Under the pieces are notes generated by a model that was not told where the DNA came from, did no database searches, and saw nothing but the letters and a program-made list of their open reading frames with translations. From positions 1-32,634 of the forward strand of contig CALPUT020000002.1 of the NCBI GenBank assembly GCA_943326825.2: DNA of 32,634 bases, written 5' to 3'. Shown here piece by piece: positions 853-29,742 of this stretch; position 1 is the first letter of the stretch, and every line of letters begins with the position of its first letter. A program made the translations under genes and the position numbers. Origin of the DNA: Chryseobacterium gleum (lineage in GTDB: Bacteria > Bacteroidota > Bacteroidia > Flavobacteriales_D > Crocinitomicaceae).

Positions 853-859
853 ATACAAT

Positions 860-2782: not shown

Positions 2783-3384
2783 TGATTTCACTTTTTCCAA
2801 CTTCTTACTTTGGAAATATTAATTATTTCAAAACGTTAGCAAGCGAGCGAAATATCTTAATTGAAGGGAAAGAACACTTTCCAAAACAAACATTTCGCAA
2901 TCGATTTGAAATTCTAACTTCAAATGGAATTCAGTCGCTTTCAATACCAGTAAATAAGATAAACGGTACCAAAACCATAACTGAAGATATCGAAATATCC
3001 TATTTAACAGACTGGAGAAAAGATCATTGGAAAGCTATTGAAAGTGCTTATTCATCGTCTCCCTATTTTGAACATTATGGAGTTGAAGTTCATGAATTAA
3101 TTTATCAAAATGAAAATAATTTAATAAAATTTAATCAGAAAATAATTGAACAAATTATAAATTGGTTAGAGATTCCTTCTGAAATAAATTTCACTTCAGA
3201 ATATACTTTTGGGGAAACTAGTACTAATGATTTTAGAGAAACTTTATGTTCTAAAAAACAAAATTACAATAATCAACTTTTATACACACAAGTATTTGAA
3301 AATCAAATAGGATTTACAGGAAATCTATCCATTTTAGATCCTATATTTTGTTTAGGTCCTATGGCAAGAAAATTAATTATTTGA
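2782..3384 (+). CDS. WbqC-like family protein
   Basis: Start reassigned to ATG 2782 (TAATG overlap with lepB stop) instead of ORF start 2671; MISLFPTSYFGNINYFKTLA… F.KQTFRNR.EI…G.Q.LSIPV resembles the WbqC-like family. Confidence 0.8.
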   Translation: MISLFPTSYFGNINYFKTLASERNILIEGKEHFPKQTFRNRFEILTSNGIQSLSIPVNKINGTKTITEDIEISYLTDWRKDHWKAIESAYSSSPYFEHYGVEVHELIYQNENNLIKFNQKIIEQIINWLEIPSEINFTSEYTFGETSTNDFRETLCSKKQNYNNQLLYTQVFENQIGFTGNLSILDPIFCLGPMARKLII

Positions 3385-3404
3385 TTATTTAAAAAAAACT
3401 CATA

Positions 3405-3431
3405 ATAGTTACCCATGTAACTATTTTTTTT
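3405..3431 (+). terminator. Intrinsic terminator of dapB-lepB-WbqC unit
   Basis: ATAGTTAC-CCAT-GTAACTAT perfect 8-bp stem followed by T-run, 20 nt after the stop codon. Confidence 0.75.
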
Positions 3432-3440
3432 ATATATTTG
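3408..3440 (+). promoter_or_regulatory. Candidate promoter GTTAC-N20-TATATTTG
   Basis: TATATTTG (3433-3440) matches Bacteroidota -7 TAnnTTTG; no gene starts downstream before the terminator at 3478-3513. Confidence 0.55.
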
Positions 3441-3445
3441 TACTG

Positions 3446-3513
3446 ATTTAGGTGGTTAGGTTAGGTTGATTAAAAGGTAGAGAGCAGACGCCCGTTTGCT
3501 CTCTATTTTTTTG
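3446..3513 (+). ncRNA. Candidate small RNA (~65-75 nt), unassigned
   Basis: Bounded by TATATTTG promoter box and a strong intrinsic terminator; no credible ORF inside; G-repeat GGTGGTTAGGTTAGG. Confidence 0.5.
3478..3513 (+). terminator. Strong intrinsic terminator
   Basis: TAGAGAGCAGAC-GCCC-GTTTGCTCTCTA 12-bp stem (one G-U) followed by T7. Confidence 0.85.
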
Positions 3514-3522
3514 TGCTAAATT

Positions 3523-4116
3523 TTAATCAATTACTAACTGATGTTTTTCAATTAATTTTCTAAGATTTATCAAAGCGTATCTCATTCTACCTAAAGCAGT
3601 GTTAATACTAATATCTTCTTTATCTGCTATATCTTGAAAAGATAAATCTTGGAATAATCTCATTTTTAGAATATCTCTTTGCATTTCTGGTAAATATTCA
3701 ACCAAATCAACCATCTGATTTTCAAGTTCTGTTCGTGTAATCTGATCCTCAATATTCTCATCTTCCAATTTCAATGTACTGAAAATATTAAAATCAGCTT
3801 TTAATGAAGATGATTCAGATACAAAACTCACTTTATTTGTTCTTCGAAAATGGTCTATAATTAAGTTGTGAGCTATTCTCATAGCCCAAGGTAAAAACTT
3901 ACCTTCCTCATTATATGTCCCTAGCTTAAAAGTGTTTATTACTTTAATAAATGTTTCCTGAAAAATATCTTCAGCTAAATCTCGATCATTCAATTTAATC
4001 TGAATAAAACGATAGATTTTGTTTTTATGACGCATCAATAATGTTTTGAATGCGTTTTCATTTCCCTGAATGTATAATGAGATTAACTCACGGTCTTCCA
4101 TTAGTTTCATATTCAT
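3523..4116 (-). CDS. RNA polymerase sigma factor, ECF/sigma-70 family
   Basis: Region 2 (DLAEDIFQETFIKVINTF…WAMRIAHNLIIDHFRR) and region 4 (LPEMQRDILKMRLFQDLSFQDIADKEDISINTALGRMRYALINLRKLI). Confidence 0.93.
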   Translation of the reverse strand: MNMKLMEDRELISLYIQGNENAFKTLLMRHKNKIYRFIQIKLNDRDLAEDIFQETFIKVINTFKLGTYNEEGKFLPWAMRIAHNLIIDHFRRTNKVSFVSESSSLKADFNIFSTLKLEDENIEDQITRTELENQMVDLVEYLPEMQRDILKMRLFQDLSFQDIADKEDISINTALGRMRYALINLRKLIEKHQLVID

Positions 4117-4304
4117 AATTCCTCGTTTTAGAAGTAAAACAATTATTCGTTTTTCAATTTAAAAGAGTAAAATTATGCTATAGGCTACCTTATTTTTGAG
4201 TTATTTAATATTGCTAATATACAACTTAATCTATTACTTCCAAGAAAAAAAAATAAAAATTAAGTAATAAAAATTTAAAGTGTAGAAATTATTGAGTAAA
4301 AGAA

Positions 4305-5006
4305 TTAAATCTGTTTATTGTGAAAATCAATTGTTAATTCTCTGTAAGCATCTGAATAATTATTATCATTATTTCTTATTAAAAATGAAACTTCTTCCGT
4401 TTGAATATACGTTTTAGAAAAAACAAGAATTGTTCTTTTGCTTTTACCTGGTTTTGCAAATAATATGATTTCTTTAGTACAAAACAACTCTAACTTTAAA
4501 CAAAATTCTTTCCATTTATCCTTGTTCTCAGTAGTTAATATGATCCAAAACTTACCATTTTCAGTAAGCATCGAATGTACTTTATTAAAAAGCTGATCAA
4601 AAGGTAAATTAGCTTCATGTTTTGCTATTGCCACTTGTGACTTTTCATTTTGAAAAGTAGTTTCATAAAATGGTGGATTTGAAACTATTAAATCGTAATT
4701 CTTTTTACTTTCAAATAAAAGAAAATCTTCACAAAATCCATGTAAACGATTACTCCAATTAGAAAGACTAAAGTTATTTTCTAAATCAATAAAACTAAGT
4801 GAATCAATTTCAATTGCCTCAATCTCAATCATTAGATTTTTTTGAGCAATCATTAAAGACAAAATACCTGTTCCTGATCCAATATCCAAACATTTAAAAT
4901 GTGATTCACATTCAACCAATGCGCCCAAAAGCATTGCATCTGTCCCAACTTTTAAAGCTGAGTTATCTTGATGTATTGTAAATTTTTTAAACGAAAAAGA
5001 CGACAT
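4305..5006 (-). CDS. tRNA1(Val) (adenine37-N6)-methyltransferase-like, class I SAM-dependent
   Basis: CLDIGSGTGILSLMIAQ SAM motif, NPPFY N6-adenine MTase motif, FxFKxFTIHQDxxALKVGTDAMLLGA N-terminus typical of YfiC/TrmN6. Confidence 0.85.
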   Translation of the reverse strand: MSSFSFKKFTIHQDNSALKVGTDAMLLGALVECESHFKCLDIGSGTGILSLMIAQKNLMIEIEAIEIDSLSFIDLENNFSLSNWSNRLHGFCEDFLLFESKKNYDLIVSNPPFYETTFQNEKSQVAIAKHEANLPFDQLFNKVHSMLTENGKFWIILTTENKDKWKEFCLKLELFCTKEIILFAKPGKSKRTILVFSKTYIQTEEVSFLIRNNDNNYSDAYRELTIDFHNKQI

Positions 5007-5009
5007 GAA

Positions 5010-5540
5010 TTAGTCTAAATACAACGAAATTAGACCTGATGGAGCATTAATATGTAAGATTTTATTATCTCTATCCACTTTTTTAACTAAATCATCTAAC
5101 AATGGGATCAAAACTTCTTTTGTACCATTCATTACTTGAATTAATGGATTTACTGATAAATCGATAATTGATTCTAAAACCCCCACTTCTCCATATTGTT
5201 CGTCAATAACTTTATAACCAACAACTTCGTGATCATAAAAGTTATTCCCTTCTAATTTTTTTAGAATTGAAGAAGGTAAATAAAGATTTTTTCTTAAAAT
5301 TATTTTGGCGTCCATTTCAGAATTGATTCCTTCGAATTTTACTGCTGCAAATGGATGATTCTTTAATTTAAATGATTCTATGAAAAAAGGTGTTAACTGA
5401 TTATTAATATCAATAAAAACATTATCAATATTATCATAATCTTCTGGATTAGTTACGTCCAAAAATAGCGAAACTTCACCTTTAAATCCGTGAAGTTTCG
5501 CTACATATCCTAAATTAAAGCAATCTGCTTTATTCATCAA
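5010..5540 (-). CDS. rimM: Ribosome maturation factor RimM
   Basis: LGYVAKLHGFKGEVSLFLD N-terminus, adjacent to rpsP. Confidence 0.9.
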   Translation of the reverse strand: MMNKADCFNLGYVAKLHGFKGEVSLFLDVTNPEDYDNIDNVFIDINNQLTPFFIESFKLKNHPFAAVKFEGINSEMDAKIILRKNLYLPSSILKKLEGNNFYDHEVVGYKVIDEQYGEVGVLESIIDLSVNPLIQVMNGTKEVLIPLLDDLVKKVDRDNKILHINAPSGLISLYLD

Positions 5541-5550
5541 TGATTAAATT

Positions 5551-6105
5551 TTATTCAGCTGAAGTTTCTTCTTCAGTTGATGCTTCAGGCGCTTCATCAG
5601 TCGCTTCTTGTTCAGCAACAACTTCTTCTTCTACCTCTTCTACAACAGGAGCATTTTTAGCTTCAATTGCTTTTGCTTTTGCATCTTTTTTCTCAGCTTC
5701 AGCTTTCAAACGAGCTACTTTATCAGCATCTGCATTTTTACCTAAACCGTCTTTTTTAGCAACAATTTTCGCTTCTTTTTCAGCAACCCATGCAGCAAAA
5801 CGAGTTTCTACATCAGCCTCAGTTAAAGCACCTTTTTTAACACCATTGATTAAATGGTTTTTGTAAAGAATCCCTTTATAAGAAAGAATCGCTCTTGCTG
5901 TATCAGTTAATTCAGCTCCAACTTGAACCCAGTGTAATGTTTTATCAAAATTGATGTCTATTGTTGCTGGATTTGTGTTAGGATTGTAAGTCCCTAATTT
6001 TTCGATGAATTTACCATCTCTTTTAGCTCTTGAGTCAGCAGCTACTAAATGGAAAACAGGTTTCCCTTTTTTTCCGTGTCTTTGCAATCTAATACGTGTT
6101 GCCAT
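5551..6105 (-). CDS. rpsP: 30S ribosomal protein S16 with long acidic/Ala-rich C-terminal extension
   Basis: MATRIRLQRHGKKGKPVFHLVAADSRAKRDGKFIEKLGTYNP. Confidence 0.96.
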   Translation of the reverse strand: MATRIRLQRHGKKGKPVFHLVAADSRAKRDGKFIEKLGTYNPNTNPATIDINFDKTLHWVQVGAELTDTARAILSYKGILYKNHLINGVKKGALTEADVETRFAAWVAEKEAKIVAKKDGLGKNADADKVARLKAEAEKKDAKAKAIEAKNAPVVEEVEEEVVAEQEATDEAPEASTEEETSAE

Positions 6106-6165
6106 TTTTTTTTGTTTTATAAGTTGAAGTACGAAACTTCAGTTAATAAATAAATTATTCGGGTG

Positions 6166-6173
6166 CAAAGTTA
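6166..6173 (-). promoter_or_regulatory. Candidate -7 box (TAACTTTG) of rpsP-rimM-trmN6 unit
   Basis: CAAAGTTA on + strand = TAACTTTG on -, 60 nt upstream of rpsP ATG; no convincing -33 box. Confidence 0.4.
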
Positions 6174-6209
6174 GTCAAAAGTTTTGATAAATCTATATTT
6201 ATATAAAAA

Positions 6210-7016
6210 TTATCTATTTATCATAGATTTCAACTCATGCACCTCTTTTTGTAAATCTTGTAATGAACGTGATAAGTCATGATCATCCATTCGAATTTCA
6301 GGTAGTTCAGGTGAAATATAATTAACAAATTTCCACATCTCTAAAATATCATTCACATGAACAAAATAGGGTTTGTAAAAGGGATTTGTAGAACATAATT
6401 GAAATGACTGAGTCGAATCTAAGAGATTATGAACTATCTTAAAAACAATTCCATCTTCTTTTGTTACTACAATACATGGAGTAGCATTTCTAATTGTCAT
6501 CCAATTCTGAACAAATTCAGCTATTACAAATGAACCTTCAACAACAGGAGGCATTGAATCCCCTTGTATAGGAAAAGTTCTATATTTCTTATTTTTCGAT
6601 AAAAAAGGTAAATTAAATGTCGGTAATACTTTTAAATAATCCGGATCAGCATAGCCACGAGCATAGCCAGCACTAGCTTTTACAGGAATTAACTCAATCA
6701 TTTCCTCATCATGTTCATTAACAATTGAAGTCAATACGCGAAGTTTTTGACCTTTTACATCCGTCAACAAACCTTTATCCATGCGCTCCAATTCGTTTTC
6801 TGTAAAATCTTCAAAATTCTTACGAAGTAATTCATCAATTGAAACTTTAAAATAATCACTAAATGCAACTAAATTTTCAATATTTGGTTGCGCTACACCG
6901 TTTTCATAACCACTATAAGTAGAGCGACTTAGTTTTAAGTCTTGAGCCACATCTTCTTGTGATTTTTTTAAACGTTTACGTAATATTTTAAGATTATTTC
7001 CTACTTCCATTTTCAA
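6210..7016 (-). CDS. XRE-family HTH plus S24/LexA-like peptidase-domain transcriptional regulator
   Basis: N-terminal HTH (LRKRLKKSQEDVAQDLKLSRSTYSGYENGVAQPNIENL), then KASAGYARGY, FPIQGDSMPP Ser motif and FKIV Lys region. Confidence 0.88.
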   Translation of the reverse strand: MKMEVGNNLKILRKRLKKSQEDVAQDLKLSRSTYSGYENGVAQPNIENLVAFSDYFKVSIDELLRKNFEDFTENELERMDKGLLTDVKGQKLRVLTSIVNEHDEEMIELIPVKASAGYARGYADPDYLKVLPTFNLPFLSKNKKYRTFPIQGDSMPPVVEGSFVIAEFVQNWMTIRNATPCIVVTKEDGIVFKIVHNLLDSTQSFQLCSTNPFYKPYFVHVNDILEMWKFVNYISPELPEIRMDDHDLSRSLQDLQKEVHELKSMINR

Positions 7017-7083
7017 TTATATTGAATTCGAAGTAAAGATATATTTTTCTTATTTAATAAGCAAATAAATGATTAAATTATAA

Positions 7084-7995
7084 TCATCTTTTGACAACAA
7101 TTGGTTTTCCTACCGTTTTTGCATACACAGCAGTAAATTTTGCTCCAAAGAATATAATTTGTGAAGAATAATAAGTCCATAACAATATAATCATCAACGT
7201 ACCTGCAATTCCTCCATCTTTTGCGAAAAAATAATGTGCTAAATACGATTTAATTAAAAGTTGACCAAAATAAAGTAGAATTGATGTTACTAAAGCACCA
7301 CCCAGCGCCAATTTCCACATAACTAACCCATCATGTAAGTACCTGAATATTAAAGTAAATATTAACAAATTAGTCAATATAGAAATACCATGTTGAGCAA
7401 ACTCCATAAACACCCAACTAACGGCATTTGTCTGAGTAAAGAATTCATTTCCAACTGAAATAAGAATAGTTTGAGCAAAGTAAAGAACAATAACAATTAC
7501 ACCGAAAATTGCTAACATTGATACAGAAACCAAACGTGTAATAATTGTATCCAGAATCATTTTCTTCTTTGATAAAAAAACTTTTTCAACGTCAAAAAAT
7601 TCATTCAAACTTCCTCTCAAAGACATCAATAATGCCGTACTAGACAATACAAGAGCAATTACTCCTGAAAGATTTAAAATAAAACTTCCTTTTCCAAGAT
7701 TCATTCCATTTAAAAAAGAAATAATCCCACTAATATCCTTTATTCCAACTTGCTCTTTTAACATTTTACCTACAATCTCAACCATAGTATCATGTCCTAC
7801 TATTCTACCAAAAGTGGCAAATGAAAGATATAACATGGGTACTAATGCAAAAATTGTATAATAGGATAAGGCAGCCCCATGAAAAAAACTTTTCTCCTTG
7901 AAAAATTCAATAAAAGTATCTTTAATCAAAACACCTATTTCTGACCAAGATAAATGCCTAATTCCTTTTTTTAATGTTAATTTCTTTGGTTTCAT
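7084..7995 (-). CDS. YihY/virulence factor BrkB family membrane protein
   Basis: FFHGAALSYYTIFALVPMLYL, WxxxLxGALVTSILLYFGQLLIKSYL, GTLMIILLWTYYSSQIIFFGAKFTAVYA. Confidence 0.88.
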   Translation of the reverse strand: MKPKKLTLKKGIRHLSWSEIGVLIKDTFIEFFKEKSFFHGAALSYYTIFALVPMLYLSFATFGRIVGHDTMVEIVGKMLKEQVGIKDISGIISFLNGMNLGKGSFILNLSGVIALVLSSTALLMSLRGSLNEFFDVEKVFLSKKKMILDTIITRLVSVSMLAIFGVIVIVLYFAQTILISVGNEFFTQTNAVSWVFMEFAQHGISILTNLLIFTLIFRYLHDGLVMWKLALGGALVTSILLYFGQLLIKSYLAHYFFAKDGGIAGTLMIILLWTYYSSQIIFFGAKFTAVYAKTVGKPIVVKR

Positions 7996-8890
7996 TTAAA
8001 ATCTCAGTATGATATAATCTAATTTTCTCTTTGTTTTGCGTCAAGAAGTGATTGACAAAATATGCGCCAGAAAATTCACTTTCCATAAATTTAACTTTCA
8101 AACTCAATTTATTTTGCTTAGTCAATTCAAATTCGTTTGGACGAAAGAGAATAGTCCTCTCTCCTATCTTCACTTTATTAATATCACCAAACAACTCTGC
8201 TTCTTTTATGGTTTTGGAATCAAAATAAAAATTTAAAGGTGTATCAATTCGTTTAATTTTACCTTTTTCAAAATGAATAATTTTATTTGCCAAACTTAAA
8301 ACTTCACTTCCATCATGTGAAACGAGAATAATTCCCATTTTACGTTTCTTCTTAAGTTTTAGAATATAAGTAGAAATTTTCGATCTTAATCTTCCATCCA
8401 AATGAACGAAAGGTTCATCCAATAGTAAAATTTTAGGCTCACAAGCAAGAGCTCTAGCTAAACATAAACGTTGCTGCTCACCACCAGATAGAATCAATGC
8501 TTTATGATTTTTAACATGATCTAATTCTACTAAATCTATTAATTCGGCTACTAGTTCATCTCGTTCTTGACGAGGTAAATAAAGAGCTTTTTCACGAATA
8601 TTTTCTTCTACGGTGTGGTAAATATCTAATGCGAAATCTTGGTTAACTAATTGAATATCTTCATGTCCAGGAACTAAATTAAACATCGGTCCTAACACTT
8701 TTGTATCTTGAAAAAACACAGTTCCTGCACTTGGATCTTTTAATCCTGCAATAATTTTTAGCAGAGTTGTTTTTCCAATTCCACTTTTACCAACTATCCC
8801 AACTAACTCGCCTTCATTTAGCGAAAAAGAAATGTTATTTAAAATCTGCTTTTCGTATGAAAAACAAATACCTTCCAATTTCAATAACAT
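7958..8890 (-). CDS. ABC transporter ATP-binding protein
   Basis: Walker A GKSGIGKTT, signature LSGGEQQRLCLARAL, Walker B ILLLDEPF; TOBE-like C-terminus (RTILFRPNEFEL). Confidence 0.9.
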   Translation of the reverse strand: MLLKLEGICFSYEKQILNNISFSLNEGELVGIVGKSGIGKTTLLKIIAGLKDPSAGTVFFQDTKVLGPMFNLVPGHEDIQLVNQDFALDIYHTVEENIREKALYLPRQERDELVAELIDLVELDHVKNHKALILSGGEQQRLCLARALACEPKILLLDEPFVHLDGRLRSKISTYILKLKKKRKMGIILVSHDGSEVLSLANKIIHFEKGKIKRIDTPLNFYFDSKTIKEAELFGDINKVKIGERTILFRPNEFELTKQNKLSLKVKFMESEFSGAYFVNHFLTQNKEKIRLYHTEILNETKEINIKKRN

Positions 8891-8896
8891 TGATGC

Positions 8897-9328
8897 TTAA
8901 TTACCAATTAATTCTTCAGGAAAATCCTGATTTACAATATAAATTCCAGGAATAGGATTTATCGTAGGCTCCTCTCCTTTCATAAAGATTTTTAATATAA
9001 ACTCATCTTTCACTTCTTTCAAATCGAATGAATCTAACGCTTCTTCTGAACAAGCAAATTCTGTAACTGGCCCATCTGTTGAATGAATTTTAAAAACGCG
9101 CATGTTTTCAATTTCAAAAGAAAAATCTTTACCATCGGGAAAGGATCCTGCAATAGAATAACTACCTTTTTCAACGATTTCAACATTTGAAACATTCGAA
9201 TTTAGGGCTAATTCATCTTCCCATTCGATTTTGTAATTATTCTCAGATTCTTCTCCACTGTGCTGTGCATCTGCATGTTCTTGAGAAAAATGTTCGTTTA
9301 AAAGATAAAAATGTGCTATTAGTTTCAT
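8897..9328 (-). CDS. Hypothetical protein
   Basis: 143-aa ORF in gene-dense same-strand context; no recognised motif. Confidence 0.7.
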   Translation of the reverse strand: MKLIAHFYLLNEHFSQEHADAQHSGEESENNYKIEWEDELALNSNVSNVEIVEKGSYSIAGSFPDGKDFSFEIENMRVFKIHSTDGPVTEFACSEEALDSFDLKEVKDEFILKIFMKGEEPTINPIPGIYIVNQDFPEELIGN

Positions 9329-9406
9329 TTGCTTATAATATGATTTTTTAAAATTACGCTTTAAATTGATACCAAGAAATTAAAAATGGACTTAAATCAA
9401 ATAGAT

Positions 9407-10180
9407 CTAAATTGAAATTTGCAAGCCATCATATGCAGTAAAAACATTGTTTGGTAACATTTTTTCAATATCTGAATTAACTCCAAAAAGATGCGAAATA
9501 TGAGTTAAATAGGCTTTGGTTGGGTTTACTTTTTGAATAAAATCTAATGCTTCAGTTAAATTAAAATGTGAAATATGCTCTGATTGATGCAAAGCATTTA
9601 CAATTAAAACTTCAGTACCTTTAATTTTCTCAATTTCACTATCAGAAATTGTTTTTGCATCTGTAATATAGGTAAAATTTCCTATTCTATAACCAAATAC
9701 TGGCATTTTATAATGCATAACCTCTATTGGTTGAACCTTAATTCCACAAGGTAAATTGAAAGAATTATTCTCAATAATATTCATATTAATTTGTGGGATT
9801 CCAGGATTACGATCTCCAGAAAAAACATATTGAAATTCACGCTTTAAAGCTGCTGATACTCTTTCAGTGCAGAACACTTCCATATCTCGCTGTTCTTTGT
9901 AATTAAAAGCTCTGACATCATCTAATCCAGCAACATGATCTTTGTGTTCATGTGTAAATAATATACCTCGAAGTGATTTTACTTTATTCATCAACATCTG
10001 CTGTCTGAAATCTGGACCCGAATCAATAACATAATTTTCTTCACCAATTGAAATTAGAATTGAACTTCTAAGTCGCTTATCTTTTGAATCCAAAGATGAA
10101 CAAACAGGACATTCGCAAGCTATCACAGGAACTCCTTGAGAAGTGCCCGAACCTAAAACAGTTATTTTTATTGATGACAC
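9407..10180 (-). CDS. MBL-fold metallo-hydrolase (PhnP-like)
   Basis: LGSGTSQGVPVIACECPVCSSxDxKDxRLRSS, FTHEHKDHVAGLDDVR, TYITDAK, LTHISHLFG. Confidence 0.9.
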   Translation of the reverse strand: MSSIKITVLGSGTSQGVPVIACECPVCSSLDSKDKRLRSSILISIGEENYVIDSGPDFRQQMLMNKVKSLRGILFTHEHKDHVAGLDDVRAFNYKEQRDMEVFCTERVSAALKREFQYVFSGDRNPGIPQINMNIIENNSFNLPCGIKVQPIEVMHYKMPVFGYRIGNFTYITDAKTISDSEIEKIKGTEVLIVNALHQSEHISHFNLTEALDFIQKVNPTKAYLTHISHLFGVNSDIEKMLPNNVFTAYDGLQISI

Positions 10181-10182
10181 TT

Positions 10183-10572
10183 CTATTTTGCTTTTATTAA
10201 TTTAATCAAAAGTACTATCCAACCTGTAACAATCAATAATCCTCCCAATGGAGTAATAGGTCCTAAAAAACTAAGTTTAACATTTAATATCGGTTGTAAA
10301 GTCAATAAATAAATTGAGCATGAAAAAAATAAATGGCCCAAAATCAATAAATTAAAAACGGACTTTAATGAAAACTTTACTTTTTCAGCAATTAATCCCA
10401 AAAATAAAAATGAAAAAGCTCCATAGATTTGATACTTAACTCCAGTGTCAAAAGAAATGATTTTTTCAGGATTATTCGGCAATAGTGTTTTTAAACTATG
10501 CGCACCAAAAGCACCCAATATTATTCCTGTGAATAAAAAAAAGATCCCAAAAATGATATATTTCCTGTCCAT
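10183..10572 (-). CDS. DUF423 family membrane protein
   Basis: GIILGAFGAHSLK…FDTGVKYQIYGAFSFL…GPITPLGGLLIVTGW. Confidence 0.88.
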   Translation of the reverse strand: MDRKYIIFGIFFLFTGIILGAFGAHSLKTLLPNNPEKIISFDTGVKYQIYGAFSFLFLGLIAEKVKFSLKSVFNLLILGHLFFSCSIYLLTLQPILNVKLSFLGPITPLGGLLIVTGWIVLLIKLIKAK

Positions 10573-10573
10573 A

Positions 10574-11860
10574 TTATGTGTTTTTTAAATTTAAGGTATG
10601 TTCTAAAACAGACTTCCAATCTTTCCATTTCTTATAATCTCCAATTGTTTCGTTGTGCCAAATAAAAACGAAATCTCCTCCATATTTACTAACTTCTTTA
10701 TACAATTCATCGATTAAACAACAACTTTCTTCCGTCGAAATTTTTAAATATTCATTCAACGTTCCATCCATATAAACAAAAGGATGAATTGTTAAATCAG
10801 TAATTTTATTTCGATTTAAATCAAACCATTGAAAAGGTCTTGCTGTTCCTGCCCTAAATCCAACATTATCTGCATATCCCATTGTATAATCGTTCTCAAT
10901 ACCCAATTTCAAAAGAGTTGAATAGGTTTTTGATATAGACAATCTTAAAAAATGTTGTCTTGAATTAACAACTCTTTCTCCCAATATATAAGACAAACGC
11001 TCAATTTCATTTTCTACATAAAGTGGATATGAATTTGATCTATAACCTGGATGTATACCAACTACTGCTTTATTGGCCATTCTTTTAATTAAGCTGACAT
11101 GATCATCATTTTTATAAGTAATGTTTTTGTCAAATTTTGCATAATCAGCCAACAACCAAAAAACATTTACTTTAAATCCTCTATCAATAATTTCTTCAAT
11201 ATAAGAATAAGTGTCATAAGGATCAGCTTTTAATTCTTTCAAAACCAATTTACGCTCAACGATTCTTTCTTTGTCTTTTTTAATAAAATCTCTAATTATT
11301 GACATGTACTTTCTAAAGCCAAATTTCAATCGATAAGCATATGCATTATCGATATCAAAAGTCGGATGAATAGTCACATAATTAGTTAAAAATGAATTAT
11401 CTATTCCTCCTTTAATCGAAAGTAAATTTAAAAAATCAACTGCCCATTGATCACAAACGGCTTTTTGTAACCAACCAAATTCAGAAAGAATACTATTTTT
11501 AGATTGAAACCTTCCATGCTGATCTAAATGAACAGAAGTATACTCTTCCATTCTAGAAAGAATATAAAAAATAGATGCTAAAGGATCTACAATTCTATTA
11601 AAAGACAGACATACTTCTTCATGAAAAAGACCTTTTTCAATCGCATAAACAAATATCGCTTCATCAAACAATAATGTAGAAGGAACCAATTGTGGAATTG
11701 ATTCAAAATATCTTTCAGAATAATTAAACTTTAAATTGTTTGATGTTTCAAATGTGTAATAATCATTGTTTAATTTATACGGCAATCCCCTTTCTTTAAA
11801 GACAAAATCTAAGGTATAGATTAACCTTTCAGAAATTTGATCAACGTATATTTCTACCAT
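10574..11860 (-). CDS. Polysaccharide deacetylase-like protein
   Basis: HPTFDIDNAYAYRLKFG metal-binding motif, VGIHPGYRSNS, FVFIWHNETIGDY. Confidence 0.75.
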   Translation of the reverse strand: MVEIYVDQISERLIYTLDFVFKERGLPYKLNNDYYTFETSNNLKFNYSERYFESIPQLVPSTLLFDEAIFVYAIEKGLFHEEVCLSFNRIVDPLASIFYILSRMEEYTSVHLDQHGRFQSKNSILSEFGWLQKAVCDQWAVDFLNLLSIKGGIDNSFLTNYVTIHPTFDIDNAYAYRLKFGFRKYMSIIRDFIKKDKERIVERKLVLKELKADPYDTYSYIEEIIDRGFKVNVFWLLADYAKFDKNITYKNDDHVSLIKRMANKAVVGIHPGYRSNSYPLYVENEIERLSYILGERVVNSRQHFLRLSISKTYSTLLKLGIENDYTMGYADNVGFRAGTARPFQWFDLNRNKITDLTIHPFVYMDGTLNEYLKISTEESCCLIDELYKEVSKYGGDFVFIWHNETIGDYKKWKDWKSVLEHTLNLKNT

Positions 11861-13005
11861 TAGATTAATTCAATGATTTTTTCACAAATAAATTCAGCCG
11901 CAGCTCCGTTACCGTAAAAATCAGGGAATGTAAAATCTGGTTTTGAATTCAATTTAGAATAAGCATCTACAATTCTAAAATAATCCGCATCCGCTAAAAT
12001 TGCATTTCCATTGTTTACGATCTCAACCCATTCAGTTTGTGGACGAAGAATGACACATGGTTTATGAAAGAAATATGCTTCTTTTTGAAGTCCACCACTA
12101 TCTGTAACAATTAATCTTGCGTTCTTTTCTAAAGCAATAATATCTAAAAATCCCGCTGGATCAATCATTAAGAACTTATCACTCTTCTCTATTTCGTTGA
12201 ATAACTCACTAGATAATTGATCTTTCATCTTCCCTCTTGTTCGAGGATGAGCAGGAAAAACAACTGACAAACCTGAAACTTTACTGATTTCTAATAACGC
12301 TTTAAAAATACCTTCAAGATTTTCAGCAATATCCGTATTGGAATCTCTATGAATAGTTGTTAAAATATATTCATCTTTTTTCAACCCTAGTAAATTCAAC
12401 AAAGTAGATTTTTCATCTGAGATTGACGAAAAATACAAGCTGTTATCATACATGATATCCCCGCATTGAAAAACTCTTGGTGAATTTGCAGTAGCTTTCT
12501 CATTTGACATCAAAGTAAACCCTTCTTTTTCTAAATTTTCTAATCCGGTAATTGTTGGAGAAAAAAGTAATGATGACATGTGATCACATGCAATTCTGTT
12601 TACTTCTTCTGGCATAGCTTTATTAAAACTTCTCAAGCCTGCTTCAACGTGAATTACTGGTATGTGTATTTTAACAGCTGCCAAAGCTCCAGCTATAGTA
12701 GAATTAGTATCACCATAAACTAAAACAGCATCTGGTTTTTCTTTGATATAAATTTCCTCTAAACCTTCAATCATTTTAGCTGTTTGAGAACCATGTGATC
12801 CACTACCAACATTCAAATTGTAATTCGGATAAGGAATCCCCATTTCTTTGAAAAATATCTCAGACATGTTTTCATCGTAATGTTGACCGGTATGAACAAT
12901 AATCTCTTGAATTTCATTTGAAAAATGATTTTTAATCGCTCTACTCATCGCAGAAGACTTGATAATTTGAGGTCTTGCCCCTATAATTGTAATTATTTTT
13001 TTCAC
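11860..13005 (-). CDS. wecB: UDP-N-acetylglucosamine 2-epimerase (non-hydrolysing)
   Basis: IIGARPQIIKSSAMSRAI, HTGQHYDENMS, VYGDTNSTIAGALAA, HVEAGLRSFN…PEEVNRI, TDSGGLQKEAYF. Confidence 0.92.
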   Translation of the reverse strand: MKKIITIIGARPQIIKSSAMSRAIKNHFSNEIQEIIVHTGQHYDENMSEIFFKEMGIPYPNYNLNVGSGSHGSQTAKMIEGLEEIYIKEKPDAVLVYGDTNSTIAGALAAVKIHIPVIHVEAGLRSFNKAMPEEVNRIACDHMSSLLFSPTITGLENLEKEGFTLMSNEKATANSPRVFQCGDIMYDNSLYFSSISDEKSTLLNLLGLKKDEYILTTIHRDSNTDIAENLEGIFKALLEISKVSGLSVVFPAHPRTRGKMKDQLSSELFNEIEKSDKFLMIDPAGFLDIIALEKNARLIVTDSGGLQKEAYFFHKPCVILRPQTEWVEIVNNGNAILADADYFRIVDAYSKLNSKPDFTFPDFYGNGAAAEFICEKIIELI

Positions 13006-13015
13006 TTCAACTTTA

Positions 13016-13708
13016 TTAATTCATTAAACCTTGATCCGCGAAGCTAAAATAACCATTATCCGTGAAAATGATGTGATCCAAAATAGATATATCAATAATT
13101 TTTGCAAATTCCTTTAAATCTTTCGTGATTTTTAAATCTTCTGATGAAGGTTGAAGTTGTCCACTTGGATGATTGTGATACAAAATAATCGTCTGAGCTG
13201 ATTTTTCCAACGCCTTTTTAAAAATCATTTTACCATCAACTACCGTTCCTGCAAAACCACCGGAAGAAATAAATTCGATTGAAATCAATTGATTCGCTCT
13301 ATTCAACATAGCCACATAAAATACTTCATGCGTTAAATCTTGAAAAATATGTCTCACTAATTCATAAGCCTGATTTGATTTTGTAATTTTTTGTTTTTCT
13401 TCAGGTTCAGCATCTTTTCTTCTTCTCCCAATCTCTAAAGCTGCAAGAATTGATATTGCTTTTGCATCTCCTATCCCTTTGAATTTAGTTAATTCATTAT
13501 GAGTCAGTTTTCCAAGTAAAGAAAGATTATTTGAAACTGATGATAATAAATCCCTAGCAAGTTCTAGAGCAGATTTTTCTCTTGAACCTGATCCAAGGAT
13601 AATTGCAATTAATTCTGAATCACTTAAATTATGTTTTCCTTTTAGAAGTAATTTTTCTCTCGGGCGATCATCTTCTGCCCATGATTTGATGGTTATATTT
13701 TCAATCAT
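13016..13708 (-). CDS. radC: RadC family JAB/MPN-domain protein
   Basis: RPREKLLLKGKHNLSDSELIAIILGSG, YHNHPSGQLQPSSEDLKIT, LDHIIFTDNGYFSFAD. Confidence 0.94.
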   Translation of the reverse strand: MIENITIKSWAEDDRPREKLLLKGKHNLSDSELIAIILGSGSREKSALELARDLLSSVSNNLSLLGKLTHNELTKFKGIGDAKAISILAALEIGRRRKDAEPEEKQKITKSNQAYELVRHIFQDLTHEVFYVAMLNRANQLISIEFISSGGFAGTVVDGKMIFKKALEKSAQTIILYHNHPSGQLQPSSEDLKITKDLKEFAKIIDISILDHIIFTDNGYFSFADQGLMN

Positions 13709-20520: not shown

Positions 20521-20916
20521 TTAAACTGTTAATACTAAATCTGTATATTCTTTAAATTCAAATGGAACTTTAACCATATAAGCATAATCTTGTCCGACTT
20601 CATACATATCTTCATCTGACTCTCTATAATGCCATTCAACCTTTACTTTAAAACCGTTGTCAGACAATTCATTGAGTTTGTAAAGTAAAAAAAGAATTCG
20701 CTTAGAAGAAGATATATTGAAATATTCCAGATCAATCTTAACGATTGTTTTTTGAAAAGGATTCATCAAGTAAGAATCGAACCAAGAAAGAATTGGCCCC
20801 CAAAATTCGTCTGGATTATCTGGAATAGATCTACCCTTAATTTCCATAATACCACTTTGACAATCAAAATGAATCAATGGAGTTTGAGTAGAAGCTTCAA
20901 ATATTAATTTTTCCAT
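20521..20916 (-). CDS. SiaC-family (DUF1987) protein
   Basis: TPLIHFDCQSGIMEIKGRSIPDNPDEFWGPILSWFDSYL…KIDLEYFNISSSKRILFLLYKLNEL. Confidence 0.85.
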   Translation of the reverse strand: MEKLIFEASTQTPLIHFDCQSGIMEIKGRSIPDNPDEFWGPILSWFDSYLMNPFQKTIVKIDLEYFNISSSKRILFLLYKLNELSDNGFKVKVEWHYRESDEDMYEVGQDYAYMVKVPFEFKEYTDLVLTV

Positions 20917-23426: not shown

Positions 23427-24398
23427 TTATTTTTTTACAAACTGAGCAAAGTCTTTTGCAAAATAAGTTAAAATTCCATCTGCACCTGCTCTACGAATAC
23501 TTAATAGCATTTCAGACATAGTTGCTTCATAATTTAACCAACCATTTTGAGCAGCTGCATATACCATAGCACATTCGCCACTTACATTGTATGCAGTAAT
23601 AGGTGTGTTAAAATTTTCTTTCAATAAATGAATGATATCTAAATAGCATAACGCCGGTTTAACCATAATAAAATCAGCTCCTTCTGCAATATCCAATTCA
23701 GCCTCGATTAAAGCTTCCCGTTTATTCGCAGGATTCATCTGATATGTTTTTTTGTCCCCTAATTTTGGTGCAGAATTCAACGCATCTCGAAAAGGTCCAT
23801 AAAATGCACTTGCATATTTTGCAGTGTAAGACATAATACTTACATCCGTGAATCCATGCCTATCTAGTTCATTTCTTAAATAACCAACTCTTCCATCCAT
23901 CATATCCGAAGGACCAAGAATATCAACACCTGCTTGAGCTTGAGCAATTGACATTTTAGCTAAGATTGGTAAAGTTTTATCATTAACAATACGTCCATCT
24001 TCAACCAAACCATCATGACCGTCTGATGAGTATGGATCCATAGCAACATCACTCATTACAACGATATCTGGAAATTCTGATTTTAATTTTCGAATTGCGT
24101 TTAAATAAAAATTGTCTTCAACATAACTGTAAGATGCAATTTGATCTTTCAAATCATCATTAACAGCAGGGAAAATATCGAATGTTTTTACTCCTAATTC
24201 GATACATTTTTCAATTTCAGGAAGCAACAAATCAATAGACCATCGATAATTATTAGGCAACGATTTAATTTCAGTTTTTATACCTTTACCGTCTTCCAAA
24301 AAAATTGGATAAATCAGATTTTCAACTCCTAATTTAGTTTCTTGAACCATATCGCGAATTGCACTATTCTTTCTATTTCTCCGAGGACGAATATTCAT
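23427..24398 (-). CDS. hemB: Porphobilinogen synthase (delta-aminolevulinic acid dehydratase)
   Basis: RPRRNRKNSAIRDMVQE, DVAMDPYSSDGHDG, YQMNPANKREAL, ADFIMVKPALCYLDII. Confidence 0.95.
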   Translation of the reverse strand: MNIRPRRNRKNSAIRDMVQETKLGVENLIYPIFLEDGKGIKTEIKSLPNNYRWSIDLLLPEIEKCIELGVKTFDIFPAVNDDLKDQIASYSYVEDNFYLNAIRKLKSEFPDIVVMSDVAMDPYSSDGHDGLVEDGRIVNDKTLPILAKMSIAQAQAGVDILGPSDMMDGRVGYLRNELDRHGFTDVSIMSYTAKYASAFYGPFRDALNSAPKLGDKKTYQMNPANKREALIEAELDIAEGADFIMVKPALCYLDIIHLLKENFNTPITAYNVSGECAMVYAAAQNGWLNYEATMSEMLLSIRRAGADGILTYFAKDFAQFVKK

Positions 24399-24536: not shown

Positions 24537-25421
24537 ATGAAATTAAATTTTAATAAAATAGCTACTATTATTTTAGGTGGATTTATTATTGCATCATGTA
24601 ATGGATCTTCCGATAAAAATGAAATCGACAAAGACGTTCTTGATCCTAACAGCTCTATTAATACTAATTTCGACGGTAAACTTTTCAGTATTCCTTCACC
24701 TATACAAATGTCCCTTTTACTAAAGGAGGCAAATATACCATTTAAAGAATCTTTATTGAATCAAACTGATAAAAGCAAAAATTACACAACTGAGTATAAA
24801 CAAGCTTTAAATCTAGGTATTTACGGTACAGATTTAGGTTACGCTTCAATTAACGAACAGAATGGAATTGCATTGAAATACTTATCAGTTGTTGAAGGAC
24901 TAACTTCTAAATTAGGATTAGAAGGTGCTTTCGATAAAAATTTCATGACTCGTTTTGAAAAATACCATACTAACAAGGATTCAGTTATGGGTATTATATC
25001 AGATGCTTTTAGAAAAGGTGATAACTTCCTGAAAAATGCAAAAAGAAAATCTACCTCTTCTTTAATTTTAGCAGGTGGATGGATTGAATCAATGAATTTT
25101 GCTTGTAAATTAAATAGCATTAAAGAAAATCAAAATATAATAAACAGAATTGGAGAACAGCAACAAACTTTAACTTCATTAATTGATATCTTAGTTGAAT
25201 ACAATTCAAATAAGTCGAATGATGAATTGATCGCTGATTTAAATGAATTAAAAACAATTTATGACAAAGTTGTTATTGATTATCAATTTGTAGCACCAAA
25301 AACAGATGAAGTTAAAAAAGAAACTACTCTTCAACACTCTTACAAAGTAAAAATTGACAAAGAAGTTCTAGCTGAAATTGAATCAAAAATTAGTGCAATT
25401 AGAGCTAAAATAACTAACTAA
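24537..25421 (+). CDS. Hypothetical lipoprotein
   Basis: Signal peptide with lipobox (GGFIIASC); conserved-looking FSIPSPIQMSLLLKEANIPFKESLLN segment; no named family recognised. Confidence 0.8.
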   Translation: MKLNFNKIATIILGGFIIASCNGSSDKNEIDKDVLDPNSSINTNFDGKLFSIPSPIQMSLLLKEANIPFKESLLNQTDKSKNYTTEYKQALNLGIYGTDLGYASINEQNGIALKYLSVVEGLTSKLGLEGAFDKNFMTRFEKYHTNKDSVMGIISDAFRKGDNFLKNAKRKSTSSLILAGGWIESMNFACKLNSIKENQNIINRIGEQQQTLTSLIDILVEYNSNKSNDELIADLNELKTIYDKVVIDYQFVAPKTDEVKKETTLQHSYKVKIDKEVLAEIESKISAIRAKITN

Positions 25422-25438
25422 TTAAAAAAATAAATACG

Positions 25439-25867
25439 ATGAAAACTATTATAAGTTCTTTATTATTCATTTTTGTTATTTCTCAAAGTTCATTAGCTCA
25501 GGATTGTAATGATGTTGTGAAAGTTTGTGAAAGATACTTAAAAGGAAAAGAAGGGAAAACTTTATTCATTTCTGATGGTCAAGTATATACAGCATTTTTA
25601 GATAGAGAAAAAGCAGAATTTAGAACAACATTTTTCGGTGGTTCTAAATATAGAATTGCAGCTAGCGCAGGAAGTGATGATGATTATGTTATTTTCACAG
25701 TGAAAGACCTAAAAGGGAATACAATATTCACAAATAAAAACCATAAAAATGCCCCTTATTGGGATTTTGTAGTACCAAATACAATTCCTGTAATTATCGA
25801 AACTGAATTAGATTTGGATAAAAAAGTAACTGGCTGCGCAGTAATGTTAATTGGATTTAAACAATAA
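25439..25867 (+). CDS. Secreted hypothetical protein
   Basis: Signal peptide (MKTIISSLLFIFVISQSSLAQ), predicted beta-rich domain, three Cys in the mature part. Confidence 0.8.
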   Translation: MKTIISSLLFIFVISQSSLAQDCNDVVKVCERYLKGKEGKTLFISDGQVYTAFLDREKAEFRTTFFGGSKYRIAASAGSDDDYVIFTVKDLKGNTIFTNKNHKNAPYWDFVVPNTIPVIIETELDLDKKVTGCAVMLIGFKQ

Positions 25868-25882
25868 TTCTGCTGTTTCTTA

Positions 25883-28800
25883 ATGAGTGAAAGAATTCTA
25901 AAAGCTTTAATGCAACTTTTTGCAATCATTGCGAAAGTAGATGAAGAAATTGAAAACAATAATTCACATTTAGAAACGAAAAGTACAAATAGTCGAAAAA
26001 TAGTTGAATCCTTTTTAAGGTCCGAATTAAATGCTTCATTAGTTGAAATTTACTTAAAACTATATGAAGAATTCATCTTAATTCATAAAGGGAATCTTAA
26101 AAATAAAATTGCTGAGAAAAAAAGAACATCTGTCAATTCAGTTAAAATCTTACGTATTTGCTCTCAAATAAATGAAGAGTTAACTCAAAAACAGAAAGTG
26201 GTCGTACTTTTCAGAATTTTTGAATATATACAATCAAACTCAGAGATAACTTCGCAAGAAATAGATTTTGTTACTACTGTTTCTGAATCATTCAATGTTT
26301 CCGAACATGAATTTAGCCTAATTAAATATATTCAAAAAAATGATTGGTCTGAAAAAATAGATGACAAAGATGTTTTATACATCACTCCTAATCAGTTCCA
26401 TTTTGACCATGCAAAAACGTTCGTAGTTGATGGTTTAGATAATGAAATTCGAATACTTCGAATAAAAAGCATAAACGCCTTATTTTTCAGATATTTTGGT
26501 CAAGATGAACTGGTAATGAATGGACAAATTGTGTCTAATGATAGAACTTACATTCTAAATCATGGCTCGTCAATAAAGACATTAAAAAGTAAAACCGTTT
26601 ATTACAGCGATGTTATTACTCGTTTTCTTGAAGATAATCATTTTGAGAAAATAGTTTATTCTGTCAATCATATTGATTACAATTTTAAGAATGGTAAAAA
26701 AGGAATTCATAAAATAAATTTAAAAGAAGAATCCGGGAAATTAGTTGGTATAATGGGGGGATCCGGAACAGGAAAATCTACTTTAATCAATATTTTCAAT
26801 GGAAACATTAAACCTTCAAACGGCTCGATAACTATAAACAATATTGATATTCACGCTAACAAACATGATTTAGAAGGTGTAATTGGCTATATTAGTCAAG
26901 ATGATTTATTAATTGAAGAACTTTCCGTTTTTCAAAATTTATATTTCAATACAAAATTATGTTTTGACCAACTTTCAGAATTGTCAATTAATAAGAAAGT
27001 TATTGAAGTTTTAAACGCTGTTGGATTAATTGATGTGAAAGATCTTATCGTTGGGAATGTTTTGGATAAAACAATTTCAGGAGGACAACGAAAACGACTT
27101 AACATAGCTTTAGAATTAATTCGTGAACCTTCTGTTCTGTTTGTTGATGAACCAACCTCAGGATTATCTTCAAGAGATTCTGAAAACATCATGGATTTAT
27201 TGAAAGAATTGGCTTTAAAAGGAAAACTTATTTTCACTGTTATTCATCAGCCTTCTTCAGATATTTTCAAAATGTTTGATCGACTAATCGTATTAGATAA
27301 TGGTGGTTATCCAATTTTTGATGGAAATCCGCTTGATTCGATTGTTTATTTTAAAACACATATTCATCACGTAAATGCTGAAGATAGAGAGTGTAATTTA
27401 TGTGGAAATGTTAATCCTGAACAAATATTCAATATAATCGATGCTAAAGTAGTTGATGAATTTGGAAACTTTACGGATACTAGAAAGACCTCCCCACACG
27501 AATGGAATGAGTTATACAAGCAATATCAATATATTCTCAATAATGAAAAAGTTAGCGAAACTGAAGATAAATTATTACGTGTAAAAACAAATAAGCAATC
27601 AAATAAAAGAACTCAATTCAAAGTGTTTTTTAGTAGAGATGTATTAAGTAAAATTGGAAATACGCAATACATATTAACAAATTCGTTGGTTGCACCGATT
27701 TTAGCTTTAATATTATCATTATTTGTTAGATACTATAAAAAGACAAATAGTTTAAGTGAATATTCATTTTTTGAAAACGAAAACATTCCTCAATACCTAT
27801 TTATTAGTGTTATTGTAGGGCTATTTTTAGGTTTAACCGTTTCAGCTGAAGAAATCAATAAAGACAAGAAAATCCTTAAACGAGAAGAATTTTTAAATTT
27901 ATCTAGAAGTAGTTATTTAGCTTCTAAAATTTCAATTCTCTTTTTAATATCAGCAATTCAAAGTTTCTTGTTTGTTCTAATTGGTAATTACATTTTAGAA
28001 ATCAATAATATGTTACTTCCATTTTGGTTTGTATTATTTTCGATTTCTTGCTTGTCAAATATAATGGGACTTAATATTTCAAGTGCATTTAATTCAGCCA
28101 AAGTAATATACATTGTTATCCCTTTATTGATAATTCCTCAACTTTTACTTAGCGGTGTAATTGTGAAATTTGATAAATTAAATCCAACCATTTCAAAAAC
28201 CAATGAAGTTCCTTTTATAGGAAACATGATGGCTTCTAGATGGGCTTACGAAGCAATTGTAACTGAGCAAGCAACTTACAATGAATATAGTAAGCAGTAC
28301 TTCAAGCTTAAAAAAGCAAAAAGTAAAGCTGCATGGAAAAAAGATTATTGGCTTCCGGAAATGAAAAATGCACTAAATGCATCGAAGCAAATTTTACTTT
28401 TCAATGAGATAGCTGAAGAGCTGAATAATTGGGAGAATTTAAAATGTGAAAGTTGCTTAGACGATTTGAAAAACATTTCTTATTTGTCGAAAAGTGAAAA
28501 AACACACAATTCAATTGCAAAATTTCTAGATGTATTAAACAATCAGTATACTTCTGACTACAATAAATTAACTGTTGACATTGATAACATAACACAAAAA
28601 ATAGGACGCTCCAAATTTGAAAAATTACAAAATGAAAATGAAAATGAAAGTATCAATGAATTAGTTACAAATAAACGAGAAGTAGATAAAATCATTGCAA
28701 CTGAAGATGAATTAATTCAAAAGTCAGATCCTATTTATATTAATCCTTCTGAATATTCATTTTTTAACACACCATTCTACAGCTCTTCTAAATTTTTATT

Positions 28801-28942
28801 TGGTATTGAAATCTCAACATTTTGGGCTAATTGTTTAATCCTTTGGTTCATGACAATTATTACTGGTATCGCTTTATATTATAATTGGCTTAAAAAATTC
28901 ATCGATTACATTCAATATATATTCAGTAAAAATAAAGCATAA
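25883..28942 (+). CDS. ABCG-like ABC transporter (ATPase-permease fusion) with N-terminal TerB-like and FHA-like regions
   Basis: Walker A GGSGTGKST, signature ISGGQRKRLNIALEL, Walker B SVLFVDEPTSGLSSRDS, VIHQPSSDIFKMFDRLIVL, C-terminal TM segments; N-terminal ~150 aa helical region. Confidence 0.88.
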   Translation: MSERILKALMQLFAIIAKVDEEIENNNSHLETKSTNSRKIVESFLRSELNASLVEIYLKLYEEFILIHKGNLKNKIAEKKRTSVNSVKILRICSQINEELTQKQKVVVLFRIFEYIQSNSEITSQEIDFVTTVSESFNVSEHEFSLIKYIQKNDWSEKIDDKDVLYITPNQFHFDHAKTFVVDGLDNEIRILRIKSINALFFRYFGQDELVMNGQIVSNDRTYILNHGSSIKTLKSKTVYYSDVITRFLEDNHFEKIVYSVNHIDYNFKNGKKGIHKINLKEESGKLVGIMGGSGTGKSTLINIFNGNIKPSNGSITINNIDIHANKHDLEGVIGYISQDDLLIEELSVFQNLYFNTKLCFDQLSELSINKKVIEVLNAVGLIDVKDLIVGNVLDKTISGGQRKRLNIALELIREPSVLFVDEPTSGLSSRDSENIMDLLKELALKGKLIFTVIHQPSSDIFKMFDRLIVLDNGGYPIFDGNPLDSIVYFKTHIHHVNAEDRECNLCGNVNPEQIFNIIDAKVVDEFGNFTDTRKTSPHEWNELYKQYQYILNNEKVSETEDKLLRVKTNKQSNKRTQFKVFFSRDVLSKIGNTQYILTNSLVAPILALILSLFVRYYKKTNSLSEYSFFENENIPQYLFISVIVGLFLGLTVSAEEINKDKKILKREEFLNLSRSSYLASKISILFLISAIQSFLFVLIGNYILEINNMLLPFWFVLFSISCLSNIMGLNISSAFNSAKVIYIVIPLLIIPQLLLSGVIVKFDKLNPTISKTNEVPFIGNMMASRWAYEAIVTEQATYNEYSKQYFKLKKAKSKAAWKKDYWLPEMKNALNASKQILLFNEIAEELNNWENLKCESCLDDLKNISYLSKSEKTHNSIAKFLDVLNNQYTSDYNKLTVDIDNITQKIGRSKFEKLQNENENESINELVTNKREVDKIIATEDELIQKSDPIYINPSEYSFFNTPFYSSSKFLFGIEISTFWANCLILWFMTIITGIALYYNWLKKFIDYIQYIFSKNKA

Positions 28943-28972
28943 AAAAAGAGCAACTAACATTGTTAATTGCTC
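28941..28972 (-). terminator. Intrinsic terminator of fabG (possibly bidirectional)
   Basis: GAGCAA-c-TAAC-ATT-GTTA-a-TTGCTC stem with T7 on minus strand, between convergent genes. Confidence 0.75.
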
Positions 28973-28995
28973 CTCCAAAAAATTTTATTTATTGA

Positions 28996-29742
28996 TTACA
29001 TCAACATACCACCACAAACATTAATCGTTTGACCTGTAATATAACCTGACATATCTGATGCTAAAAACACAGTTAAATCAGCTACATCTTTCGGTGAACC
29101 ACCTCTTTTTAATGGAATTGAATTTCTCCAATCTTGAACAACTTTTTGATCTAAAGCAGCAGTCATTTCAGTTTCGATAAAACCAGGAGCAATTGCATTG
29201 CAACGAATATTTCTTGAACCTAATTCTTGAGCGATAGATTTAGTAAAACCAATTAAACCAGCTTTTGATGCTGCATAATTTGATTGACCTGCATTACCAC
29301 TAACTCCAACAACTGAGGACATATTGATAATAGAACCTTTTCTAGCTTTCAACATTGGACGTTGTACAGCTTTTGTTAAGTTAAATGCAGATTTAAGATT
29401 TGTATTCATTACTTCATCCCATTGTTCTTCTGTCATTCTCATTAACAAAGTATCTCTTGTGATACCAGCATTGTTTACTAAAACATCAATTGTTCCAAAC
29501 TCAGCTACTACATCATCAACTAATTTAGATGCTTCGTCAAATTTTCCAGCATCAGACTTAAATCCTTTTGCAACACCACCATTCGCAGACAATTCTGTTT
29601 CTAATGCACTTGCTTTTTCTTCTGATGACAAATAAGTAAATGCCACTTTAGCACCTTGTCTTACACATTCTTCAGCAATTGATTTACCAATTCCTCTTGA
29701 AGCTCCAGTGATTAAAACCACTTTATCTTGTAATAAACCCAT
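28996..29742 (-). CDS. fabG: 3-oxoacyl-[acyl-carrier-protein] reductase
   Basis: ITGASRGIGKSIAE, NNAGITRD, INMSSVVGVSGNAGQSNYAASKAG, APGFIETEMT, SGYITGQTINVCGGMLM. Confidence 0.95.
   Translation of the reverse strand: MGLLQDKVVLITGASRGIGKSIAEECVRQGAKVAFTYLSSEEKASALETELSANGGVAKGFKSDAGKFDEASKLVDDVVAEFGTIDVLVNNAGITRDTLLMRMTEEQWDEVMNTNLKSAFNLTKAVQRPMLKARKGSIINMSSVVGVSGNAGQSNYAASKAGLIGFTKSIAQELGSRNIRCNAIAPGFIETEMTAALDQKVVQDWRNSIPLKRGGSPKDVADLTVFLASDMSGYITGQTINVCGGMLM

Follow-up and report, generated by a model that had tools for sequence, protein, structure and literature searches.

The conservation of a three-gene exporter operon in the Bacteroidota, and its repeated association with genes for SiaB- and SiaC-type proteins, suggest that export across the envelope may be placed under the control of a partner switch in these bacteria. 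In this study, we analyzed a stretch of 32,634 nucleotides (the window; contig CALPUT020000002.1 of assembly GCA_943326825.2, family Crocinitomicaceae, a Fluviicola-like genome) that encodes a lipoprotein (LP), a small secreted protein (SP), and an ATP-binding cassette (ABC) exporter of the ABCG type. We propose, with a probability of roughly 0.55, that this envelope exporter operon is the output of a SiaABC-type partner switch. An earlier reading of the sequence, the original prediction, had described three plus-strand genes with short gaps flanked by minus-strand genes, and the open reading frames (ORFs) bear out its coordinates, with gaps of 17 nt between the LP and SP genes and 15 nt between the SP and exporter genes.

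The original prediction had also taken the three genes for one operon and proposed neighborhood conservation as a check. We read 122 exporter loci, made up of 40 and 80 contigs from the genomes of relatives, the window, and its paralogue, and 115 were left after duplicates were removed; the 80 loci from named genomes are the best hits of a search, so that the sample leans toward close relatives. Fluviicola metagenome-assembled genomes (MAGs), Crocinitomix catalasitica, Brumimicrobium salinarum, Cryomorpha ignava, and many other Bacteroidota MAGs are represented. The order LP-SP-ABC was found exactly in 81 of the 115 distinct loci, and a further 14 keep LP and/or SP next to the exporter in another order (LP-SP-x-ABC in 4, ABC-LP-SP in 6, and other partial arrangements in 4), bringing the total to 95; 18 lack both LP and SP, and 2 begin at a contig end. 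Since the genes flanking the triple vary between families, its persistence cannot be put down to gene order being conserved in general. Judged from its sequence and conservation, it is a real conserved operon, whose genes are presumably cotranscribed. Among 396 evenly sampled Bacteroidota genomes, 9 have the exporter, and LP occurs in 8 of these 9 and in none of the 387 others (P = 6e-16). Four loci (L083, L087, L124, and L126) are titled "Candidatus Kuenenia stuttgartiensis" or "Chitinophaga pinensis" and are close to those of Fluviicola or other Flavobacteriales; these MAG names look wrong.

Clustering of the neighboring genes brought out two that recur near the exporter, encoding SiaC (PF09345, a STAS-like phosphoprotein) and its kinase SiaB (PF19788, DUF6272). 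In 34 of the 85 exporter genomes, the end of a SiaC gene lies no more than 551 bp from a member of this exporter family, where about 0.1 would be expected, although these genomes are related and the events are not independent; orientations differ, and SiaB is usually present. Of 43 SiaC sequences read by eye, 35 retain the phosphoacceptor threonine (T68 of Pseudomonas aeruginosa SiaC). Three arrangements occur. SiaC and SiaB genes may lie convergently just downstream of the exporter, as in several families; they may precede it on the same strand as (SiaB)-SiaC-ABC-LP-SP (L002/L160, L067, L069-L071, L077, L245, and L254); or the order may be SiaC-LP-ABC-SpoIIE, as in L128. The second arrangement forms one supported clade spanning families f1, f6, and f19 and often has, ahead of it, a gene for a sensor-linked SpoIIE/PP2C phosphatase and CheB/CheR/CheA/CheY-like genes. 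In six relatives (L067, L069-L071, L245, and L254), siaB, siaC, and a SpoIIE phosphatase gene share the operon of the exporter. L002/L160 is a paralogous Sia-ABC-LP-SP set that lies on contig C38 of the same genome as the window. In L071, positions 180-13619 hold a long same-strand operon of CheA, CheR, CheB, response-regulator/SpoIIE, three SiaB, SiaC, exporter, LP, and SP genes, which looks as if a Che-like array, a Sia switch, and a pump had been fused.

The distribution of the two systems among genomes points in the same direction. In a set of 119 relatives, SiaC is present in all 85 genomes with the exporter and in 16 of the 34 without it (P = 2.4e-12), and each of the genera g2, g8, g10, and g17 includes genomes with neither exporter nor SiaC as well as genomes that retain the two. 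Cytochrome bd, taken as a control family, showed no link to the exporter (P = 0.78). In the phylum sample, SiaC is present in 8 of the 9 exporter genomes and 14 of the 387 others (P = 2e-10). The sole exporter genome of that sample without SiaC, L249, has a classical partner switch adjoining ABC-LP: positions 984-4847 encode a STAS protein, an RsbW-like ATPase/kinase, two histidine-kinase-type proteins, and a response-regulator/SpoIIE phosphatase. A different STAS-based switch thus stands in the place of the missing SiaC, and this is the strongest single hint of function that we found.

The same observations bear on the possibility that the export unit is real and that the Sia genes adjoin it through inherited gene order or a shared niche, exerting no control over it. 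We consider this explanation unlikely, if worth keeping in view. It would fit the recurrence of one conserved block, SiaC-SiaB-methyltransferase-transporter, downstream of the exporter in relatives, the kinship of the genomes, which inflates the counts, and the situation in the window's own genome, where the canonical SiaB-SiaC pair lies with a methyltransferase gene on contig C108, with no exporter gene beside it. It would also fit the Crocinitomicaceae, in which LP-SP-ABC is mostly not beside SiaBC. It does not readily account for three distinct arrangements with one-operon versions in f1, f6, and f19, for the presence of SiaC in every exporter genome among the relatives, or for the STAS switch that stands where SiaC is missing in L249.

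By its sequence, the window protein is an ABCG-type exporter, as the original prediction had it (Table 1). It has ABC_tran and ABC2_membrane matches, with the nucleotide-binding domain (NBD) N-terminal to the transmembrane domain (TMD) in one polypeptide, and its best solved relatives across both domains are CDR1, ABCG1, and ABCG2. TIGR00955 matches amino acids 239-795 at a score below the NCBIfam cutoff. The NBD motifs are intact (Walker A GGSGTGKST at amino acid 292, signature ISGGQRKR at 398, and Walker B LFVDEP at 419), and the linker motif ECxxCGNVNPEQIF is nearly invariant, with both cysteines present in at least 90% of exporter homologues. The original prediction had called the N-terminus TerB/FHA-like. 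The TerB part stood, since 22 of 26 homologous N-termini match the Pfam TerB family (best, 3e-9), the window protein falling just under the cutoff and the distant homologue L250 passing it. The FHA part did not: the N-termini gave no Pfam FHA match, and a profile of 19 FHA domains compared with exporter amino acids 150-256 by hhalign gave a probability of 0.04, against 99.7 for an FHA-versus-FHA control, so that we rejected an FHA N-terminus. The larger exporter homologues of L250-L253 (family f59, from another class), of about 1200-1300 amino acids, include the one with TerB in L250.

Table 1. Features of the exporter operon and its surroundings in the window
Feature	Coordinates (nt)	Strand	Basis or remark
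LP, lipoprotein, 294 aa, first gene	24537..25421	+	ORF list
SP, small secreted protein, 142 aa, GOLD-like beta sandwich	25439..25867	+	ORF list, AlphaFold2 (AF2), Foldseek
ABCG-type exporter, 1019 aa	25883..28942	+	TerB-containing N-terminus, NBD, TMD with enlarged loop before last transmembrane helix (TM)
TerB domain, aa 74-147	26102..26323	+	Pfam, subthreshold in window protein; homologues stronger
NBD (ABC_tran), aa 276-426	26708..27160	+	Pfam, motifs
CxxCGNVNPEQIF motif, aa 504-516, NBD-TMD linker	27392..27430	+	Homologue alignment
ABC2-type membrane domain (ABC2_membrane), aa 577-768, TM1-TM5	27611..28186	+	Pfam, hydropathy
Enlarged extracytoplasmic loop of ~200 aa before TM6, at the position of ABCG extracellular loop 3 (EL3)	28190..28792	+	Hydropathy
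Last TM helix, aa 971-1003	28793..28891	+	Hydropathy
Lone SiaC-family gene, 131 aa, 3.6 kb from LP	20521..20916	-	Phosphoacceptor Thr replaced by Ile (LEYFNISSSK)
hemB-like neighbor	23427..24398	-	ORF list
fabG-like neighbor	28996..29742	-	ORF list
Terminator-like hairpin between convergent exporter and fabG genes	28944..28976	-	T-run on minus strand

The original prediction had cited the FHA-ABCG protein Rv1747 of mycobacteria as a precedent, and transporters of the Rv1747/PknF type, FHA-ABCG proteins under phosphorylation control, share with the window exporter the order of NBD and TMD and a cytoplasmic regulatory N-terminus. That the window exporter belongs to this type is nevertheless very improbable given the FHA results above; no kinase gene stands beside the exporter, and the window operon contains no Ser/Thr kinase gene. 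The precedent belongs elsewhere in the genome, as a true FHA-FHA-ABCG protein of 798 amino acids with the Rv1747 architecture is encoded at a separate locus on contig C20 (L244, 1915-4311), clustered with genes for a Ser/Thr kinase, a PP2C phosphatase, and vWA-FHA and FHA-peptidase-like proteins. We therefore rejected Rv1747/PknF as a model for the window exporter.

The two exported proteins, which the original prediction had described as lacking a recognized family, indeed fall below every Pfam and NCBIfam cutoff. LP carries the lipobox MKLNFNKIATIILGGFIIASC (..IIASC) with its cysteine at residue 21, which is invariant across 66 homologues, and its AF2 model is mainly helical, with a predicted local distance difference test score (pLDDT) of 85. 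Searches of the PDB by profile and by fold gave no match for LP, EfeO at an E value of 0.54 being noise. SP has a cleavable-type signal sequence at its N-terminus and a confidently modeled beta sandwich (AF2 pLDDT, 91). The best Foldseek match of SP is the p24 GOLD domain (E value, 3.5e-4; probability, 1.0), although the template modeling score is only 0.43-0.51 and PliG and subtilase domains are nearly as close; a profile match to BspA (E value, 0.0065) was set aside because the fold search favors sandwiches of the GOLD, PliG, and subtilase-domain kind. In L112, L127, L139, and L146, an extra secreted protein of ~160-175 amino acids (cluster c53) is encoded between SP and exporter, and the L112 copy has no Pfam match.

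LP and SP also occur as pairs on their own, and do so in many genomes. Eight loci (L178, L180-L183, L188, L193, and L194) have an LP-SP pair adjoining polA with no exporter, and a second exporter-less class (L184 and L189-L191) lies near DHH-phosphatase and FKBP-like genes, these three gene names being our own reading of the sequences rather than the result of a family search. In G039, LP-SP is retained at the hemB/fabG site while the exporter is missing. These pairs indicate that LP-SP is a module of its own, either combined with the exporter in one lineage or left behind when the exporter was lost. They would agree with an account that assigns the main function to LP-SP, perhaps in envelope stability or surface binding, and leaves the exporter as no more than a carrier of the pair's ligand in one subclass. 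We judge this account improbable: on the phylum scale, LP is confined to exporter genomes, and LP-like genes accompany exporter homologues even in another class (L252 and L253 of f59).

How a SiaABC-type switch could act on the exporter is suggested by work on other bacteria. In P. aeruginosa, SiaB adds a phosphate to T68 of SiaC and SiaA removes it, and SiaC without phosphate binds and activates SiaD (PMC7647112, PMC8457831). SiaC resembles STAS proteins, and it has been proposed that DUF1987 proteins modulate adjacent proteins (PMC8457831); a STAS protein, MlaB, binds the ABC ATPase MlaF (PMC7367683). On these grounds, we propose that SiaC docks on the cytoplasmic part of the exporter. In our model, the three genes would be a single operon encoding an export unit of the envelope, in which an ABCG-type pump, by analogy a homodimer, would export from the inner membrane a substrate that is probably lipid-like or hydrophobic. 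The large periplasmic loop of the pump may work with the lipid-anchored, helical LP and the secreted, GOLD-like SP, which would receive the substrate or carry it across the envelope. A sensor-tied SpoIIE/PP2C phosphatase and the kinase SiaB would set the phosphorylation of SiaC, one form of which would dock on the TerB/NBD part and change the ATPase activity of the exporter.

The window's own operon holds LP, SP, and exporter with neither siaB nor siaC inside it. Because the canonical SiaB-SiaC pair is encoded on contig C108, regulation of the window copy would be in trans, by that pair. The lone SiaC-family gene of the window is a possible but unproven member of the system. We did not adopt it as the regulator, since its phosphoacceptor position holds isoleucine, its neighbors differ, and the isoleucine form turned up nowhere but in the corresponding gene of the window's genus (L040, L078, and L080-L082). 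For signals around the operon, one terminator-type hairpin was found against 1.3 expected in shuffled sequences, which makes the hairpin weak evidence, and a sigma-70 promoter scan was uninformative, with 23 matches found and 29 expected.

Several observations weigh against control of the exporter by the Sia switch. The separation of operon and SiaBC in most Crocinitomicaceae means that the link for the window copy rests on relatives and on the paralogue. The genomes that have SiaC and no exporter, together with the up to 14 SiaC copies found per genome, imply that SiaC also acts elsewhere than on the exporter. Genomes without the exporter tend to be small, and genome reduction may therefore explain part of the shared loss of exporter and SiaC. 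LP-SP pairs without exporter and exporters without LP/SP show that the three parts are not obligate partners. Finally, the support for the link between SiaC and exporter is genetic, coming from gene neighborhoods and phylogenetic profiles, and their physical contact is inferred. The original prediction of a self-contained machine thus holds as to a conserved operon, and "self-contained" is doubtful in view of the SiaC/SiaB tie, seen in neighborhoods and phylogenetic profiles, and of the separate LP-SP pairs.

Our literature search on SiaC or TerB with ABC transporters in Bacteroidota returned nothing relevant and no published description, in line with the original prediction of an undescribed system; the system is sound, conserved, built from known kinds of parts, and apparently undescribed. 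Control of the exporter would give the SiaC/SiaB proteins of Bacteroidota, which have no described target in the literature we found, a concrete target other than a diguanylate cyclase. It also suggests that partner switching can control bacterial ABCG-type exporters posttranslationally, extending the MlaB-MlaF precedent to a phosphorylation-controlled protein, and our analysis defines LP and SP as two conserved families of exported proteins with no known function. More tentatively, and at somewhat less than even odds, these loci may represent a phylum-wide, undescribed kind of regulated exporter. Switch proteins with a STAS fold, either SiaC or a classical STAS antagonist, would act as reversible gates on ABCG-type pumps by way of the TerB-containing cytoplasmic region of the pumps, and would thereby link Che-like and SpoIIE sensing to export by an LP of no known fold and a GOLD-like SP.

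The proposed system resembles four known ones in part. Like the half-transporters ABCG1 and ABCG2 and fungal CDR1, the window exporter has an NBD before the TMD in one chain, the ABC signature motifs, and a long loop before the last TM, and it differs from them in its TerB-containing N-terminus, its ~200-amino-acid loop, the CxxC between NBD and TMD, its partners LP and SP, and its bacterial origin. Rv1747 (FHA-FHA-ABCG) of Mycobacterium with PknF is likewise a bacterial ABCG exporter whose N-terminus is cytoplasmic and regulatory and which is accompanied by a phosphorylation system, whereas in the loci described here TerB takes the place of FHA and SiaB/SiaC/SpoIIE that of a Hanks-type kinase, and LP and SP are present in addition. 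With SiaABCD of P. aeruginosa they share a SiaB-family kinase, a SiaC-family phosphoprotein with a conserved threonine, and, in related loci, a SpoIIE/PP2C phosphatase, but the gene in the output position encodes an ABC exporter with LP and SP rather than the diguanylate cyclase SiaD. MlaFEDB, with its MlaB subunit, also pairs an ABC transporter with a STAS-fold cytoplasmic protein and has in common a likely envelope function; unlike it, the window system has an ABCG-type exporter and no MCE or MlaE protein, and SiaC is a phospho-switch protein.

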